DNA of 64,000 nucleotides from Bacilli bacterium (GTDB lineage Bacteria; Bacillota_I; Bacilli_A; RF39; UBA660), in contig JAFRQT010000014.1 in the NCBI GenBank assembly GCA_017428485.1, positions 1 through 64,000 on the forward strand, read 5' to 3'. Below, piece by piece: positions 7,353 through 22,067 of the stretch. Under the pieces are notes generated by a model. The model was not told where the DNA came from. It worked only from the letters and a program-made list of their open reading frames with translations, and did not search any database. The translations under genes were made by a program, and so were the position numbers. Every line of letters starts with the position of its first letter. Position 1 is the stretch's first letter.

Positions 7353-7757
7353 TTACTCCATTATATATGCCATTAGTTTTCTATTCATAACATCATTGTC
7401 TGAATATCTAATACATACTATTTTTGAATTCATATTTTCATTTGTTACAGGATTATGCATCTCTGTTTTATTATTATCACTGCCAGCCAAATATCCATCA
7501 TCGATTAATTTTTTTATTGTAACAGTTAAACAACTACTATCAGGAAGCGATGTATTAACTGAAACAGGTACTTGATCTAAATTATCATTGGCATAGTCTA
7601 GTGCTGCATTTTTAATTAATGATACTCTTGAATCATATGTTTTTTGAAGCATATCTTTTCTAATATCAATAATTGAAGGTGTAACTAATATTACTAATAT
7701 ACCTAGTATAGCAATTGTTGCCATAACTTCAACTAAAGTGAAACCCTTCCTACTCAT
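7353..7757 (-). CDS. type IV prepilin-like protein (ComGC/PilA type)
   Basis: The N-terminus MSRKGFTLVEVMATIAILG is a textbook class III signal: a short basic leader, Gly before the cleavage site, Phe at +1, Glu at +5, then a hydrophobic helix. A prepilin peptidase would cut and methylate it. The globular part (about residues 35-134) has KNAALDYANDN, a TIKKLIDDGYLAG motif, and two cysteines (SSCLTV and IVCIRY) that could form the C-terminal disulphide loop of pilins. It has its own promoter, copied from that of the next gene upstream, and runs into proS. The nearest assembly ATPase is the GspE/PilB-type gene at 11700. No prepilin peptidase or PilC-like gene is in the window. Confidence 0.85.
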   Translation of the reverse strand: MSRKGFTLVEVMATIAILGILVILVTPSIIDIRKDMLQKTYDSRVSLIKNAALDYANDNLDQVPVSVNTSLPDSSCLTVTIKKLIDDGYLAGSDNNKTEMHNPVTNENMNSKIVCIRYSDNDVMNRKLMAYIME

Positions 7758-7773
7758 ATTATCACCTATTATA

Positions 7774-7802
7774 ATTATAATTTATTATTTAATTGTTTTC
7801 AA
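7774..7802 (-). promoter_or_regulatory. promoter of prepilin-proS operon
   Basis: Minus strand -35 TTGAAA (7797-7802), 17 bp, -10 TATAAT (7774-7779), then AATAGGTGATAAT before the ATG, giving a very short leader. The same promoter and ribosome site occur at 9661-9689. Confidence 0.75.
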
Positions 7803-8115
7803 TAAAAAAGAGTTTGAAAACTCTTTTTAAAATATACATGACAAATCATAGCCAAATACTACTCCAATCAAGTAAACAATTGATGGAAGTATTCCTACTA
7901 TTGCAAGTACTACTGCCATAACAACTAATTTTCTTCCTGCTTTCTTTAAACCATCTGCATCTTTTGATATTACTGCTGGTATCAACACTATCATTGCATT
8001 AGCTATTGCTATTATTGCTGCTGCTATTCTAAGTACATTTACTATTCCCTTAATTATTTTAACGCCATTATTTTTAAGTATTTCACTACAGCTTTGTCCT
8101 TTTGGACCAAAGCCT
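7801..8115. repeat. near-identical duplicated block, copy 1
   Basis: About 300 bp covering the terminator and the last roughly 95 codons of the 605-residue gene. It is almost the same, base for base, as 9693-10008, which covers the end of the upstream paralogue. The first 120 bp have no differences that I can see outside the terminator; later differences are mostly silent. The rest of the two genes has diverged strongly. Confidence 0.85.
7804..7826 (-). terminator. intrinsic terminator of the 605-residue secreted protein gene
   Basis: Minus strand AAAGAGTTT-tc-AAACTCTTT followed by TTTATT, starting at the stop codon. It overlaps the -35 box of the prepilin promoter. Confidence 0.75.
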
Positions 8116-9644
8116 CCGTCACTCATTCCTGGTATTACGAATGTTACAAAACTTGCATCCCAAGATCGTTCTTGAACACTTTTTAACTCTTCTACTCCCT
8201 CTTCTACTTTTTCATCCATTATTTTATCTACTTCTATATTATGCTCTTGTATCTTCTCTGCTTTTTCACTTAATACATTTTCAAGACATTTTCTCTTATC
8301 TTCTGATAATCCTGCATATGCTGTTTTATAGCATGCACTACATTCTTGTGTCTTTGAATTTCCTAAACATTTATCATGATCAAGATTAACTTCAGAGCAG
8401 TTTCCACTAGGAGTATAGTCTTTATTTGCCCATCTATATGTTACTCCTTGGCTTCCACCGCAGGCAATACATTTTCCTTCTGTTGTACTTGTTCCACTTT
8501 CATATACTGCAAGTTTACATCCGTATTCACATACTGTTCCTTTTAATTTTGCTTTTACTGAACTTATTTCTGCACTTGTTAATCCACAATTTTTTTCTGT
8601 ACATTCTTCTACTTTATCAGCATACGCTTGTTTTACTCTATCTCCATTTTCTTGTGCCATTTTTTCCAAATATGTTCTTGAATATGCAGATTTTCCTAAC
8701 TGCTTCAATGGATCACATTCTTCTGCATAGTTTCCTAAATCTAAGTCAAAGTCTTTTATATCTGCTGGACAAACATATTTTTGTGCTTTTTCTATTTTTT
8801 TATCATAGCAGTCAGTTTTAAATTCTTCTCCTTCTACATCTTTTTGCGTACAGCCCGTTATTCTTCCACTATAATCTGTACTTAAAATGCTATCTATTAG
8901 ATATTTTTTATAATGAACTTCTGGATCATCTGAAAAAGTAAATTCTTTATCACTATTTACCCATTTAGCTAATCCTTTTAAATTAGAAGTGAAATTAAAA
9001 TACTTAGGACATGACCCTGTCTTGTATCCTTCATAACTTGTTGTATCAATATCTATATTTTCTGTTCCGCCCTTCATTACACTGGACAAATCTGTTTGTT
9101 TTTTATTCCAAACTATTTGATTTTTACTAGAAACGCATTTGCTTCCATGAGGTTCAATTACTCTTAAAAAAACAACCGGATATGGGTGATCTTTATCCTT
9201 TTCTTTAACAATGCCGGCGTATTCTTGTTGTTCAGGTTCACAGGCGCCCAAATCACGTTCAAGTTCTCCTAAATATCCTGCATAGCATAATCCTAGAACA
9301 GCTTTTTCATCATTATTAAATACTGTGTATGCTTGCATAAATTTTGCGGATTTTACATAATAATATTGAGCCGCAACAGCCTGTCCAGCATGACGTGATG
9401 AAAGCATATGTTTTTCTCCCAAACCATCATTTTCATTTGAATAAAAATCTCCATAAGTTTTAGCATCTTGTTCACTATTTGCATCAAAATAACAACCTTC
9501 AATTGTTATTGGGTCTGGATTACCTGCACAATAAAACTGATTTCTTTGATATGCATAACTTTTTTCTTCTTCTTCTGCATTAACATTTATAATTAAGACA
9601 AATGAAATTATTATGATTAATAAAATTCTATCGATACATTTCAT
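7827..9644 (-). CDS. large cysteine-rich secreted protein with VirB2/TrbC-like C-terminal hydrophobic hairpin
   Basis: 605 residues, family not recognised. Residues 1-23 are a Sec signal peptide ending VNA. The ectodomain (about 25-505) has many cysteines (for example YCAGNPDPITIEGCYF, GSCPKYFNF, CEYGCKLAV, CIACGG, CSACYKTA) and is probably disulphide-bonded. Residues about 515-605 form a separate module: SCSEILKNNGVKIIKG, two hydrophobic helices around AAAIIAIANAMIVLIPAVIS and MAVVLAIVGILPSIVYLIGV, joined by a basic loop KDADGLKKAGRK, and a final FGYDLSCIF. The loop and hairpin resemble VirB2/TrbC pilins (inference). It is a tandem paralogue of the next gene upstream, with its own promoter and terminator. 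ATG preceded by ATAGGTGATAAT. Confidence 0.7.
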   Translation of the reverse strand: MKCIDRILLIIIISFVLIINVNAEEEEKSYAYQRNQFYCAGNPDPITIEGCYFDANSEQDAKTYGDFYSNENDGLGEKHMLSSRHAGQAVAAQYYYVKSAKFMQAYTVFNNDEKAVLGLCYAGYLGELERDLGACEPEQQEYAGIVKEKDKDHPYPVVFLRVIEPHGSKCVSSKNQIVWNKKQTDLSSVMKGGTENIDIDTTSYEGYKTGSCPKYFNFTSNLKGLAKWVNSDKEFTFSDDPEVHYKKYLIDSILSTDYSGRITGCTQKDVEGEEFKTDCYDKKIEKAQKYVCPADIKDFDLDLGNYAEECDPLKQLGKSAYSRTYLEKMAQENGDRVKQAYADKVEECTEKNCGLTSAEISSVKAKLKGTVCEYGCKLAVYESGTSTTEGKCIACGGSQGVTYRWANKDYTPSGNCSEVNLDHDKCLGNSKTQECSACYKTAYAGLSEDKRKCLENVLSEKAEKIQEHNIEVDKIMDEKVEEGVEELKSVQERSWDASFVTFVIPGMSDGGFGPKGQSCSEILKNNGVKIIKGIVNVLRIAAAIIAIANAMIVLIPAVISKDADGLKKAGRKLVVMAVVLAIVGILPSIVYLIGVVFGYDLSCIF

Positions 9645-9660
9645 ATTATCACCTATTATA

Positions 9661-9689
9661 ATTATAATTTATTATTAAATTATTTTCAA
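9661..9689 (-). promoter_or_regulatory. promoter of the 605-residue secreted protein gene
   Basis: Minus strand -35 TTGAAA (9684-9689), 17 bp, -10 TATAAT (9661-9666), followed by TATAATAGGTGATAAT and the ATG. Nearly identical to 7774-7802. Confidence 0.75.
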
Positions 9690-9691
9690 TA

Positions 9692-9716
9692 AAAAAAAAG
9701 AGTTTCAAAACTCTTT
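9692..9716 (-). terminator. intrinsic terminator of the 619-residue secreted protein gene
   Basis: Minus strand AGAGTTT-tg-AAACTCT followed by a run of nine T; a copy of the terminator at 7804-7826. Confidence 0.8.
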
Positions 9717-10008
9717 TTAAAATATACATGACAAATCATAGCCAAATACTACTCCAATCAAGTAAACAATTGATGGAAGTATTCCTACTATTGCAAGTAC
9801 TACTGCCATAATAATTAATTTTCTTCCTGCTTTCTTTAAACCATCTGCATCTTTTGATATTATCGCAGGTATTAACACTATCATTGCATTAGCTATGGCT
9901 ATTATTGCTGCTGCTATTCTAAGTACATTTACTATTCCCTTAATTATTTTAACGCCATTATTTTTAAGTATTTCACTACAGTTTTGCCCTTTTGGTCCAA
10001 ATCCACCA
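9693..10008. repeat. near-identical duplicated block, copy 2
   Basis: Partner of 7801-8115. It covers the terminator and C-terminal hydrophobic module of the 619-residue paralogue. Confidence 0.85.
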
Positions 10009-11576
10009 TCAGCAACTCCTGGAATTATAAATGTATAAAAACTATTATTATATATTTCTCTTATTTTTTCTGCATTCTTTTCATTAGTTTCGTTTTCATG
10101 TTCTTCAAATGCATTATCAACGTTATTTTCATTATTAGAAATTGCTTGTTGAGATTCTGCAATCAAGTTTAATAAACATGTTTTCTTTTCTGCAGATAAT
10201 TCAGAGCAGGCTTTATCATAGCATTCTCTACATGCGCTTGTGTTACTATTTCCTAAACAATTATCATAATCTAATTTTGCTTCCACACAGCTTCCACCAA
10301 TAGCTGCATCTTTACTTTTCCAATAATAGACAACTCCATTGCTACCTCCACAAGCCACGCATTTTCCTTCTTTGTTATCGTTTTCTTCTTCACGTATAGC
10401 AATTTTACATCCAGTTTCACACATGGTACCCTTCATTTTATTTCTTACTGATGAAATTTCTGAAGAAGTTAATTTACATTTATCACTCCATGCTTTTTGA
10501 TAGCACTCATCTATTTTGTCATTTCCAGCTTTTTTTAATTTTGGTGCATATTCTTCAGTTTGGTTTGCTAAATATCTTGCTGATTCAATATCAACATTAT
10601 GCTTTTTTGAATATTCTTCTGCACAGCTATCAATATAAGTTTTGGTATCAATATTAATATCAGTTAATTTGTCTGGGCAAGTATATTTACTTACTAATTT
10701 TGCTTTTTCTTCAATGCATGCTGTCAAATCCTCATCATAATCTTTTGATTTTTCAGTACAGCCTGTTATTCTACCGGATACATCAACACCAACTATTTTT
10801 TCAAGCCAATTATTTTTATGTCTTACTTCTTCACTATCGGAAAAAATATATTCATATTCAGGATGAAAGAATGTCGCAACACCACTCATATTTTCTGAAA
10901 AACTCATATATTTAGGACATGTTAATGTTTTAAAGCCCTCATAACCAGTAGTATCAATATTCCTAACGGCGACTGTATCATTATAATGGCTAACATCTAA
11001 ATTAATGTATTTTTTTCTGGCTTTTTCGGTATCTTGAAAAATAATTTGATCTCTATAAGCAGTATCACATTTTTTATTAAAAATTCTCAAATAAATGAAT
11101 GCCAAATCATTGTCTGAATCTTGAGGTGTTGAGTATACAGTATCAATGTAATAATGGTCATTAGGATTCTGATAACTAGGATAAGAGTTTTCATAAGCAT
11201 CCGTTCTATGAACGTATCCTTTATAGCATGCCCCCACCACAGAATCTCCATTTTTATTAATTGATGTATATGCCCTTTCAAATGTTATATTATCTATAAA
11301 GAAGTACTTCATTTCAGAAGATATGGTACCGGCAGAATATTGATGTCCTATTGTGTATGCATTGATTTGTGTTTTTGATGGAATATTTTCATATTTTGAT
11401 GCTGTTTCATCATTATAGAAACAACCCGTTAATGTTACTGTTTTATCAGTACAATTCAGTACTTGTTTTTCACCAAGTTCTGATATTTCAGTATCATTAT
11501 CTTCTTCTGCATTAATATTTATTGCAAATATTAATGATGTGACTAAAAGCAATAAAAATTTACTTACATATTTCAT
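9717..11576 (-). CDS. large cysteine-rich secreted protein with VirB2/TrbC-like C-terminal hairpin (paralogue)
   Basis: 619 residues, tandem paralogue of the gene at 7827-9644. Signal peptide 1-23 (ends INA). The ectodomain carries matching landmarks: VTLTGCFYND, TTGYEGFKTLTCPKYMSF, VSGRITGCTEK, CETGCKIAI, CVACGG, CRECYDKACSELSA. The C-terminal about 95 residues are almost the same as in the paralogue, again two hydrophobic helices with a KDADGLKKAGRK loop and a terminal C-I-F. The N-terminal two thirds are only moderately similar. ATG preceded by GGATAGGTGATAAA. Its promoter diverges from that of the secretion ATPase gene at 11700, which fits a shared surface or secretion function but does not prove it. 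Confidence 0.7.
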   Translation of the reverse strand: MKYVSKFLLLLVTSLIFAININAEEDNDTEISELGEKQVLNCTDKTVTLTGCFYNDETASKYENIPSKTQINAYTIGHQYSAGTISSEMKYFFIDNITFERAYTSINKNGDSVVGACYKGYVHRTDAYENSYPSYQNPNDHYYIDTVYSTPQDSDNDLAFIYLRIFNKKCDTAYRDQIIFQDTEKARKKYINLDVSHYNDTVAVRNIDTTGYEGFKTLTCPKYMSFSENMSGVATFFHPEYEYIFSDSEEVRHKNNWLEKIVGVDVSGRITGCTEKSKDYDEDLTACIEEKAKLVSKYTCPDKLTDINIDTKTYIDSCAEEYSKKHNVDIESARYLANQTEEYAPKLKKAGNDKIDECYQKAWSDKCKLTSSEISSVRNKMKGTMCETGCKIAIREEENDNKEGKCVACGGSNGVVYYWKSKDAAIGGSCVEAKLDYDNCLGNSNTSACRECYDKACSELSAEKKTCLLNLIAESQQAISNNENNVDNAFEEHENETNEKNAEKIREIYNNSFYTFIIPGVADGGFGPKGQNCSEILKNNGVKIIKGIVNVLRIAAAIIAIANAMIVLIPAIISKDADGLKKAGRKLIIMAVVLAIVGILPSIVYLIGVVFGYDLSCIF

Positions 11577-11601
11577 TTTATCACCTATCCTACTATTATT
11601 A

Positions 11602-11630
11602 AGTATAATATATTTTGGGCTTTAAAACAA
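11602..11630 (-). promoter_or_regulatory. promoter of the 619-residue secreted protein gene
   Basis: Minus strand -35 TTGTTT (11625-11630), 17 bp, -10 TATACT (11602-11607). Divergent from the promoter at 11639-11667. Confidence 0.6.
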
Positions 11631-11638
11631 TAATAAAC

Positions 11639-11667
11639 TTGAAATAGTTTAAACATTAATATATAAT
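11639..11667 (+). promoter_or_regulatory. promoter of the GspE/PilB-type ATPase gene
   Basis: -35 TTGAAA (11639-11644), 17 bp, -10 TATAAT (11662-11667); GAAAGGA lies before the start codon. Confidence 0.7.
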
Positions 11668-11699
11668 ATAATATAGAATAGAATAGAAAGGAAAATGCG

Positions 11700-13094
11700 A
11701 TGAAAGAGTTTGACTTTGAAAAAGTTCCTATAGTTGAAATTGCAAATGAAATTATTTCTGATGCTGTTAAACGTAACGCAAGTGATATTCACTTTGATCC
11801 AACTAAAAACAGCGTTAGAATCAGAATTCGTATAGATGGAATTTTAACTGACTATTCTATTGTTCCTGAAAAATATAAAAGGAATATGATTTCACGTATA
11901 AAAATGATTGCTGGTATGAACATAATGGAAACAAGGCTTCCACAAGATGGTGCAATTAAAAGTAGACTTGGTAAAAGAGCACTAGATCTTCGTGTTTCTT
12001 CTCTACCTACTAATATGGGAGAAAAAGTCGTTATTCGTATTTTGGACTATTCAAAAAGTTTACAAGGATTAGACACATTGGGTCTTTCAGATGAAGCAAT
12101 TAAAAAAATAGATAGGATGATTAAAGTACCAAATGGCATTATATTAGTTACTGGTGCTACTGGTGCTGGTAAATCAACAACAGTTTACTCTATCTTGCAA
12201 AAAATGAATACCGATGATGTTAATATCATAACAGTTGAGGACCCAGTCGAAATGGATATCGCAGGAATTAACCAAGTACAAGCTCAAGCTGAAATTGGCC
12301 TTACATTCGCAAATGTTCTAAGAAGTATTCTTCGTCAAGACCCAGATATCATAATGATTGGAGAAATTCGTGATGATGAAACCGCAAGAATCGCTGTCCG
12401 TGCATCTATCACTGGACATAAAGTTTTATCAACAATTCACACCAATAACTCATTAAATACAATTGAAAGACTTACTGATATGGATGTTGAAAGATATTTA
12501 CTTGGTGCTTCTTTAGAAGGAATTATATCTCAAAAACTAGCAAGAAGATTGTGTCCAGAATGTAAGAAATTAAGACCAATAAGTAATTATGAAAAAGAAA
12601 TATTTAAAAGAGTTCTAAATAAAGACGTAAACGAAATATATGATGCTAATCCAGATGGGTGTGAGCATTGTTTCAGAGGATATGCAGGAAGAATTGGTCT
12701 TTATGAGGTACTAAACATAAATGATGATATTAGAGATGCAATTACTAATGCTCTTCCTAAAAGTGAATTAAGAAAACTTGTTTATAAAAGTGGAGTTATT
12801 ACACTACTTCAAGATGGACTTGAAAAAGCTTTAGCAGGAGAAACTTCTTTTTCTGAAATATTAAAAGCTGTTGATCTTGAAAATGATTTAGAAAATTATT
12901 CAGAAGATAACTTAAGAAGTAGTTTAGATGATGTTCAAAGAATAAAACAAGCTGAAGAAAGAGCTAATGAGGAGTTTACAATTATATCTAATCAAGAAGA
13001 ACCTAAAAAAGAAGAAATACAAACAAATAATGAATCTCCTGTTGAAAAGCAAGCTCCTAAATCACCTCCTGAAATTGAATATTTTAACTTTTAA
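11700..13094 (+). CDS. type II/IV secretion ATPase (GspE/PilB/ComGA family)
   Basis: Hexameric cytoplasmic ATPase that powers pilus, pseudopilus or competence-fibre assembly. 464 residues. It has an N-terminal domain (about 1-120, ending in RVSSLPTNMGEKVVIRIL), Walker A GATGAGKST at 152-160, the Asp box with VEDPVE, Walker B IIMIGEIRDDE, and a His box with TGHKVLSTIHTNN. A zinc-binding tetracysteine site has C285, C288, C321 and C324 (CPEC...CEHC), typical of GspE/PilB/ComGA and absent from PilT retraction ATPases. It lacks the long MshEN N-terminus and so is closest in build to ComGA. The C-terminal 70 residues are an acidic/Pro-rich tail. No comGB or pilC gene follows. It may serve the prepilin at 7353. 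Confidence 0.9.
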   Translation: MKEFDFEKVPIVEIANEIISDAVKRNASDIHFDPTKNSVRIRIRIDGILTDYSIVPEKYKRNMISRIKMIAGMNIMETRLPQDGAIKSRLGKRALDLRVSSLPTNMGEKVVIRILDYSKSLQGLDTLGLSDEAIKKIDRMIKVPNGIILVTGATGAGKSTTVYSILQKMNTDDVNIITVEDPVEMDIAGINQVQAQAEIGLTFANVLRSILRQDPDIIMIGEIRDDETARIAVRASITGHKVLSTIHTNNSLNTIERLTDMDVERYLLGASLEGIISQKLARRLCPECKKLRPISNYEKEIFKRVLNKDVNEIYDANPDGCEHCFRGYAGRIGLYEVLNINDDIRDAITNALPKSELRKLVYKSGVITLLQDGLEKALAGETSFSEILKAVDLENDLENYSEDNLRSSLDDVQRIKQAEERANEEFTIISNQEEPKKEEIQTNNESPVEKQAPKSPPEIEYFNF

Positions 13095-20102: not shown

Positions 20103-22067
20103 TTAATGGTGATGAAACAAACTATGTCCTTGAAGCGCTTCATCTATTTCATCCATAGCCTGTTCTTCTGTAACTACTGGATTAAATAATTCATCTGGAA
20201 CTTGACTAGAAGCTTTTTGAGTTATTAATGCTTGAGCAGCATTTGCTTTTTCAGCTTCAGTTCCATTATAACTTTCATAATCTACACCTTTAACTCTAGT
20301 TTGTTCTTCTTCTAAAGTAGGAAGTTCTACTCTTGTATAATCTTCATCATTATAGTTTACATGTGTATGAGGAACTTCTCCATTGATAGTTATTTTGTCT
20401 CCTTCAGTTGTTGTTTTTTGTGCATCTGAATTAATCTCAACACGTACGTCTGTACCATCTTTTTGACCATTTAATACAAGGAAGTCACCAGATCTTAAAT
20501 CTACAGTTTCTTTATCACCATGTTCAGCGTCTTTTTCCGGCTCTTTTTCAGGTTCTTTTTCCGGCTCCTTTTCAGGTTCTTTTTCCGGCTCTTTTTCAGG
20601 AGTTACGGTTTCATTGTCAGTTGTTTCGCTACTGGGAGATAGTTCATCACCAGATTTCTCTTCTTCTTTTTCTTCAGTTTGTGCTACTCCTGTTTCAATT
20701 GTAGTATTAATATTTATATTATTATCAATAACATTATTTTGTGATAACTTATCAGCTACAAGACCAAGCTTATCAGCAATTCTATTTAGTCCAATTCCGC
20801 TTAAGAACGTAGCAGCTCCAAATAATACCATTCCTATTGCGTTAATCAATTTACTCTTTGGTAAAGATGTTTTCATAACCACACCTTCAACTGGTTCTGG
20901 TTTCTTTGTTGGAGTTGGTTCAGGTGTTGAAGGAGTTGGTTCAGGTGTTGAAGGAGTTGGTTCAGGTGTTGAAGGAGTTGGTTCAGGTTGAGTTACAACT
21001 GGAATTAATGGTTCGGTTGGCTCAGGTGTTGAAGGAGTTGGCTCAGGTTGAGTTACAACTGGGATTAATGGTTCAGTTGGCTCAGGTTGAGTTACAACTG
21101 GAATTAATGGTTCAGTTGGCTCAGGTTCTGTTGGTCTTGGCTCGATACCTATTAATGTTGGTGTAGGTGTTGGATCTTTTTTCATATTTTCATCCATTCC
21201 AGCCAATCTTGGATCAGGTTCCTGTTTCTTCCTTTCACGTGCTTCAGCTGCCTTCATTCTTCTGATCATTTTCTTTCTTTCTTCATCACGTTTCTTTCTA
21301 TCTTCTTCAGCTAATCTTTCTTGTTCATAATAATCTGCCTTTTTAGCTTCAGTTATTTCTTGTTGGAATCTATAATCCCAGGCATTGAAACTTCTATATA
21401 TCTCTTCATTCTCTTTTGTCAAAGATGGAATTAAATCTTGATTATATTGTTTCAATTTTTGTAATTCTTGTATTCTAGCTCTATGATGTTCAATGTCTTG
21501 ATTAATATCATCTCTTTCAAGAGAACTATGTTCATGATATTTTTGAGATTCAATAAATTGAAGTTTAGCTTCTAATCTATGAATTTCTCTTTCATGACGA
21601 GCTATTATTCTATCAATATCTTCTATTTCCTTATTTGCTGTTTCAATCTTATTATTATTTTCATCTATTTTTGATTGTTTTTCTTCAAATTCAGATCTCT
21701 TCAAACGAAGAACTGCATCTAATGCTAATAATGTTTCACGATTCTTTTCAGATACTACATCCCATGCACTTCCATAATTATGATAATCATCTGTATTTAA
21801 TTCTGTTTCACGATCTTGAACTGTAGCATATAATTTTTCAAGTTTTTCTAATGTATCAACACTAGCATTATATACTTCATCATATTTTTCTGGTGTCATA
21901 TCTGAATTAATATCTTTTGCAGCTTCAACATTTACTTCTTCATTTAATGCTTCTAATCTTTCGATAAATCTAGTCATTTCTACGCTTGATTCATCTTTTA
22001 CAACTTTCATTTTTTGTTCATAATCAGCATTTAATTCATTAATTCTTCTTATTAATTCTGTTTCCAT
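20103..22067 (-). CDS. coiled-coil protein with Pro/Thr/Glu repeats and one membrane helix
   Basis: 654 residues, not a recognised family. Residues 1-270 are highly charged and heptad-rich (coiled coil, for example IARHEREIHRLEAKLQFIE). Residues about 280-380 are low-complexity repeats of TPSTPEP and TEPLIPVVTQPEP units. One hydrophobic helix lies at about 392-415 (INAIGMVLFGAATFLSGIG). The remainder is acidic with five to six EPEK repeats and a short ordered tail ending LFHHH. With no signal peptide, the coiled coil is probably cytoplasmic and the tail outside, or the reverse. The start overlaps the preceding stop as TAATG, so translation is coupled. The gene lies between sigE and sigG. Confidence 0.7.
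   Translation of the reverse strand: METELIRRINELNADYEQKMKVVKDESSVEMTRFIERLEALNEEVNVEAAKDINSDMTPEKYDEVYNASVDTLEKLEKLYATVQDRETELNTDDYHNYGSAWDVVSEKNRETLLALDAVLRLKRSEFEEKQSKIDENNNKIETANKEIEDIDRIIARHEREIHRLEAKLQFIESQKYHEHSSLERDDINQDIEHHRARIQELQKLKQYNQDLIPSLTKENEEIYRSFNAWDYRFQQEITEAKKADYYEQERLAEEDRKKRDEERKKMIRRMKAAEARERKKQEPDPRLAGMDENMKKDPTPTPTLIGIEPRPTEPEPTEPLIPVVTQPEPTEPLIPVVTQPEPTPSTPEPTEPLIPVVTQPEPTPSTPEPTPSTPEPTPSTPEPTPTKKPEPVEGVVMKTSLPKSKLINAIGMVLFGAATFLSGIGLNRIADKLGLVADKLSQNNVIDNNININTTIETGVAQTEEKEEEKSGDELSPSSETTDNETVTPEKEPEKEPEKEPEKEPEKEPEKDAEHGDKETVDLRSGDFLVLNGQKDGTDVRVEINSDAQKTTTEGDKITINGEVPHTHVNYNDEDYTRVELPTLEEEQTRVKGVDYESYNGTEAEKANAAQALITQKASSQVPDELFNPVVTEEQAMDEIDEALQGHSLFHHH
20527..20604. 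repeat. coding tandem repeat (EPEK units)
   Basis: Five to six copies of a 12-nt unit of the type ggctctttttca/ggttctttttcc within the 654-residue gene, encoding EPEK on the minus strand. Prone to slippage. Confidence 0.8.
20906..21140. repeat. coding tandem repeats (TPSTPEP and TEPLIPVVTQPEP units)
   Basis: Several copies of a 21-nt unit (ggttcaggtgttgaaggagtt) followed by longer units containing gagttacaactggaattaat, all in frame on the minus strand. They form a flexible Pro-rich linker, and copy number is probably variable between strains. Confidence 0.85.

Follow-up and report, generated by a model that had tools for sequence, protein, structure and literature searches.

Two large cysteine-rich secreted proteins, encoded side by side in a Bacilli bacterium of the UBA660/RF39 group, end in a membrane hairpin that belongs to a family of type IV secretion system (T4SS) pilin-type hairpins. 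On balance, we think that these proteins, named here CysA (605 residues) and CysB (619 residues), are pilin-position subunits of the family's chromosomal secretion machine which bear a large ectodomain and are displayed as adhesins; this reading is favoured with some reserve. UBA660/RF39 bacteria are genome-reduced, uncultured gut Bacilli (PMC13155120).

The following features were found in the window, which is the whole stretch of 64,000 nucleotides that was analysed.

7353..7757, minus strand: type IV prepilin (KGFTLVEV), 134 aa (N_methyl PF07963, E 3e-7)
7805..7828, no strand: A/T-rich inverted repeat, terminator-like, at the end of CysA, between CysA and the prepilin gene (sequence reading)
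7827..9644, minus strand: CysA, secreted Cys-rich protein of 605 aa, 24 Cys, with a T4SS-pilin-type hairpin tail
7830..8090, minus strand: hairpin tail of CysA, from C519 to the end, with two helices, a basic loop and a flanking Cys pair
9573..9644, minus strand: predicted signal peptide of CysA (sequence reading; residues 1-26 hydrophobic)
9717..11576, minus strand: CysB, secreted Cys-rich protein of 619 aa, 23 Cys, with the same tail as CysA
9720..9980, minus strand: hairpin tail of CysB, from C533 to the end
11505..11576, minus strand: predicted signal peptide of CysB (sequence reading; residues 1-25 hydrophobic)
11700..13094, plus strand: PilB/GspE-type ATPase, 464 aa (T2SSE, E 5e-124)

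All reading frames named in a first-pass annotation of this DNA, a prepilin, two Cys-rich secreted proteins with a shared tail and an ATPase transcribed away from them, were present. The ATPase had also been called divergent, which it hardly is: it has an ordinary full T2SSE domain and lacks the N-terminal PilB domain, and a counterpart was found in most relatives. CysA and CysB have ordinary signal peptides, with neither a prepilin signal (GFTLxE) nor an N_methyl match. Promoter-like matches of 11/12 were located upstream of the CysA gene, the prepilin gene and pilB, at an overall frequency no higher than in shuffles. From these matches and the inverted repeat at 7805-7828, the window genes look as if each were transcribed separately. 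Further along the window, at 20103-22067, a protein of 654 aa is marked by recurring PEPTPSTPEP stretches rich in proline and by a short run of His at the C-terminus; a Pfam scan of it gave a low-complexity match only.

The tail of CysA and CysB comprises about 87 residues and shows in hydropathy two hydrophobic helices around KDADGLKKAGRK, with two cysteines flanking them. Between the two proteins the tails are 96% identical in both amino acids and nucleotides, whereas the ectodomains share 34% of their amino acids, so the likeness of the tails is not due to chance. When CysB was used as a single query, matches were obtained in 26 of 117 genomes of the same family, mostly in the tail region, and the relatives' tails found in this way had E values of 4e-15 to 1e-7. 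A profile of 25 tails detected the hairpin in 105 of the 117 genomes and at 10 places in the genome that contains the window (E 1e-4). A pair of conserved cysteines flanks the hairpin across the family tails. PF18895 (T4SS_pilin) was matched by 18 of the 25 family tails (best 1.7e-7) and NF045849, which comprises pilin-like proteins of conjugal transfer in mycoplasma ICEs, by 11 of them. The tails of CysA and CysB themselves had no match in Pfam at E values up to 10, and their kinship to T4SS pilins therefore runs via the family members. In a profile-profile comparison, the CysB family matched the small hairpins of the secretion cluster described below with a probability of 98.9 and E 2.5e-17. 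The TrbC/VirB2 model PF04956 was absent among the matches up to E 10 of eight tails and the small members. Of the VirB2/TrbC likeness first ascribed to the tails, a T4SS pilin-type hairpin thus stands, by PF18895 and NF045849 through family members, but the match to PF04956 does not. The accompanying proposal that the hairpin anchors a large Cys-rich ectodomain was supported. With 605 and 619 aa, CysA and CysB are outside the size of about 100-150 aa expected of a T4SS pilin. Small hairpin members of 133 aa and 124 aa are encoded on contigs C5 and C13 of the window genome, and a third full-length Cys-rich paralogue lies beside rpsB on contig C43.

The structure model of a small hairpin member showed helices at residues 25-59 and 63-97 (mean pLDDT 84). 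CysB was modelled with moderate confidence (mean pLDDT 71.6, with the hairpin region low) as a beta-rich N-terminal half, a helical part and a long helix leading to the hairpin. Foldseek and VIA-align searches with the hairpin and CysB yielded no match informative of the fold; the rows returned contained no VirB2 pilin, which excludes nothing. A PDB sequence search with the tail profile yielded mostly GPCR helices, which were taken as chance matches, and CysB had no match in a phage collection.

In relatives, hairpin genes are part of a secretion gene cluster. Its order was taken from 18 relatives picked for the proximity of the parts, which show order and not frequency. A giant Cys-rich secreted protein, DUF5411, a CpaB-like protein, a CpaF-type ATPase and two TadB/TadC-position proteins come first, followed by small Flp-like and TadE-like proteins, a TadZ-like protein, one small hairpin and at least one further hairpin with or without an ectodomain. 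The last part encodes a VirB6-like protein, a PrgI-like protein, VirB4 in two parts, a wall hydrolase and VirD4. The cluster resembles the Tad (Flp) pilus in that the CpaF-type ATPase and CpaB/RcpC-like proteins adjoin the VirB part. It differs in that the TadB/TadC/TadZ/TadE labels follow from order and size only, with no profile match, and in that VirB11 gives the ATPase a slightly higher score than TadA does; the TadB/TadC-position proteins did not match the PilC of the window genome, a single PilC sequence. Many relatives have 1-9 hairpin proteins, many of them of 250-800 aa, directly upstream of VirB6-PrgI-VirB4 and often after the Tad-like module. The gene of one tail matched by CysB at E 3e-9 (genome G110) lies between the TadZ-like/small hairpin genes and VirB6-PrgI-VirB4. 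In the order hairpin-VirB6-VirB4, VirB6 matches the Mbov_0396 family and VirB4 the Mbov_0397 family.

Two features of the cluster were seen in passing. In nearly all relatives VirB4 is spread over three adjacent ORFs, a PrgI-like, an N and a C part (as at L109 6505-9165), where the mycoplasma ICE model is one chain. The giant secreted Cys-rich proteins (L115 200-3010, L125 8479, L128 290-3667) have 936-1522 aa and 33-48 Cys; in many relatives they are encoded ahead of the Tad-like module, and the two that were scanned had no Pfam match.

The linkage was then counted in the set of 117 family genomes. Among the matches listed, and with short contigs, a hairpin gene was within 10 kb of VirB4 in 56 of 77 genomes and within 10 kb of PilB in 2 of 80. 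VirB4 and CpaF were at most 20 kb apart in 34 of 83 genomes, again on short contigs. At loci fetched by VirB4 alone, a hairpin gene was present within 10 kb in 53 of 80. The presence of the hairpin was associated with VirB4 (p 9e-5) and with CpaF (p 3e-6) and not with PilB in the family genomes, the relatedness of the species being ignored throughout, and hairpins also occurred in genomes without detectable PilB. Thirteen hairpin-bearing genomes gave no VirB4 match, and in at least one of these (G044) VirB4 had been missed. The Cys-rich genes of the window genome and of its close relatives lie away from VirB6/VirB4. A VirB4 of at least 1000 bits was found in 46 of 54 genomes of the window family and was absent from the rest of a class sample of 395 genomes, where the best score was near 400; the best plasmid VirB4, from a Mycoplasmatota plasmid, was 29% identical.

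In the window genome itself, contig C41 encodes VirB6, a PrgI-like protein, VirB4, a hydrolase and VirD4 (locus L109: NF045975 8.8e-107, NF045848 1e-7, T4SS-DNA_transf 7.5e-52). VirB4, VirB6, PrgI and VirD4, the components of a monoderm-type T4SS, are thus present at the genome level, with the PrgI-like protein assigned by position and one weak match only. Contig C13 carries CpaF/CpaB with a small hairpin gene; this module scored T2SSE 7e-29 and RcpC 3e-5, the latter below the curated cut-off, and CpaB 5.8e-7 in a relative. The VirB4 locus looks chromosomal because recG-like, YebC-like, RmuC and radical-SAM genes are its neighbours on C41. No relaxase was seen among the few VirD4 neighbours that were scanned.

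The machine resembles the T4SS module of the mycoplasma ICE (Mbov_0395 pilin-like, Mbov_0396, Mbov_0397 VirB4), since hairpin, VirB6-like protein and VirB4 match its three NCBIfam families and follow one another as the locus numbers would lead one to expect. Unlike the ICE module, it is chromosomal, family-wide and located beside housekeeping genes; its VirB4 is divided among a PrgI-like, an N and a C part, and its hairpin genes have increased in number, with large Cys-rich or enzymatic domains attached. Among published systems, the nearest is the chromosomal T4SS of Patescibacteria, which, according to the passages of PMC12102498 used here, has arrays of VirB2-like pilins and mostly lacks a relaxase. 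Shared with it are VirB4, PrgI/VirB3, VirB6, the coupling protein, arrays of 2-11 PF18895/VirB2-like pilins and genome-reduced hosts, whereas the same passages report neither a hairpin fusion to ectodomains of 250-800 aa nor a CpaF/CpaB neighbour, and the phylum is a different one. In the literature searched, no account of such a machine in RF39 was found.

We infer that CysA and CysB would be exported by their signal peptides and that the hairpin would then be placed in the membrane so that its basic loop faces inward and both ends outward, the conserved cysteine pair flanking it. The machine would consist of VirB6, PrgI, the split VirB4, VirD4 and a wall hydrolase together with the CpaF/CpaB Tad-like module. 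VirB6/VirB4, perhaps with the CpaF-type ATPase, would assemble the hairpins, which would most likely be taken up into the channel or a short pilus of the machine. The Cys-rich domains would thereby be displayed on the surface as adhesins and could make contact with other cells. In the window genome, the Cys-rich genes would have been relocated to positions beside pilB and rpsB. It is conceivable, and we propose it only tentatively, that the T4SS with the merged Tad-like module builds a pilus or channel of domain-bearing hairpins, unlike a bare VirB2 filament, with Cys-rich adhesins and, among the paralogues, esterases and wall hydrolases. The missing Pfam match of the window tails, the distance of the Cys-rich genes from VirB6/VirB4 in this genome and its close relatives, the thirteen hairpin-bearing genomes with no VirB4 match and the uninformative fold searches with ectodomain and hairpin weigh against the pilin-subunit reading.

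Genome-reduced uncultured gut bacteria of the UBA660/RF39 type are widely distributed among animals. A chromosomal secretion machine that about 100 genera have retained, and whose pilin-type subunits are multiplied and bear domains, would be a leading candidate for attachment to, or exchange of material with, neighbours, in parallel to what has been proposed for the similar machine of Patescibacteria. The pilin hairpin also serves here as a module to which large domains are attached.

The same hairpin was found joined to GDSL-lipase-like, esterase-like, NlpC/P60 and CHAP domains at scattered loci of the window genome, and to NlpC/P60 and C39 peptidase domains in relatives, with the fused domains on either side of the hairpin. 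The fusion loci in the window genome are L104 5383-6489, L105 4870-6696, L106 2-1903, L107 4517-6673 and L055 12706-14310. Judged by the position of the signal peptide and the basic loop, the fused enzymatic domains are predicted to be extracellular. Such fusions at scattered loci would suit a plain membrane anchor and therefore count against pilin-position subunits. The main rival explanation is that the hairpin serves as a general anchor for adhesin-like or enzymatic domains and has no tie left to the secretion machine, which also agrees with the window copies being away from the VirB locus. We consider this rather unlikely, since the linkage to VirB6/VirB4 is strong across the family, the absence of the hairpin is shared with VirB4/CpaF and the conserved flanking cysteines would not be needed for a plain anchor.

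The closest relative, with a VirB4 that is 99% identical, has one Cys-rich gene at its pilB locus, which is nearest to CysA, and the best counterpart of CysB at its rpsB locus. For this reason the pairing of CysA and CysB beside pilB looks recent. Hairpin genes are located at rpsB in further relatives also. The DNA of the two genes is 96% identical at 7830-8090 / 9720-9980 and 54% identical in the rest, and synonymous codon differences amount to 7% in the tails, compared to 40% in the ectodomains and 28-37% between the tails of the two species. The tail identity and the few synonymous changes point to a recent gene conversion, or a partial duplication, that involved the tail. The same contrast between tails and ectodomains, and the very different ectodomains between genera, would fit receptors or decoys for the recognition of phage or partner cells, with diversifying selection on the ectodomains and a tail kept uniform by gene conversion. 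However, the divergence may be plain drift and the ligand is purely hypothetical, so that we regard this role as improbable; it is compatible with CysA and CysB being pilin-position subunits.

PilB is present as a single copy in the window genome, the window ATPase, as a genome search showed. PilC, prepilin peptidase and VirB4 had been reported as missing, which is correct for the window locus but not for the genome, where PilC and the peptidase are together on contig C25 and VirB4 on C41. N_methyl matches identified 14 prepilins genome-wide, the window prepilin among them; they are scattered with no single pilus operon, and some are within frames of >900 aa. With PilC and the peptidase on C25 and the scattered prepilins, the genome offers the window ATPase and prepilin an ordinary type IV pilus, to which the window PilB probably belongs. 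This distribution, PilB and a prepilin in the window and PilC and the peptidase elsewhere, is like that of a type IVa pilus, but there is no sign of the Cys-rich hairpin proteins as part of one. The prepilin and PilB are probably bystanders, functionally unrelated to the Cys-rich proteins. The first-pass annotation suggested that the prepilin, the Cys-rich proteins and PilB could be parts of a single, undescribed filament or secretion apparatus. This agrees with their being neighbours here and with the Cys-rich gene at pilB in the closest relative, but is highly improbable, and a single system was rejected on linkage and co-occurrence: the linkage to pilB is unconserved and recent (2/80 compared to 56/77 for VirB4, among the matches listed), hairpin presence is not associated with PilB and extends to genomes without detectable PilB, the genes have their own promoter-like sites and a terminator-like repeat, the Cys-rich proteins lack a prepilin signal and the type IV pilus is equipped with a PilC and a peptidase of its own. 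Near the genes for PilC and the prepilin peptidase, a SipW-like signal peptidase and three TasA/CalY-like proteins were recognised by sequence reading only (L052 12713-15816).
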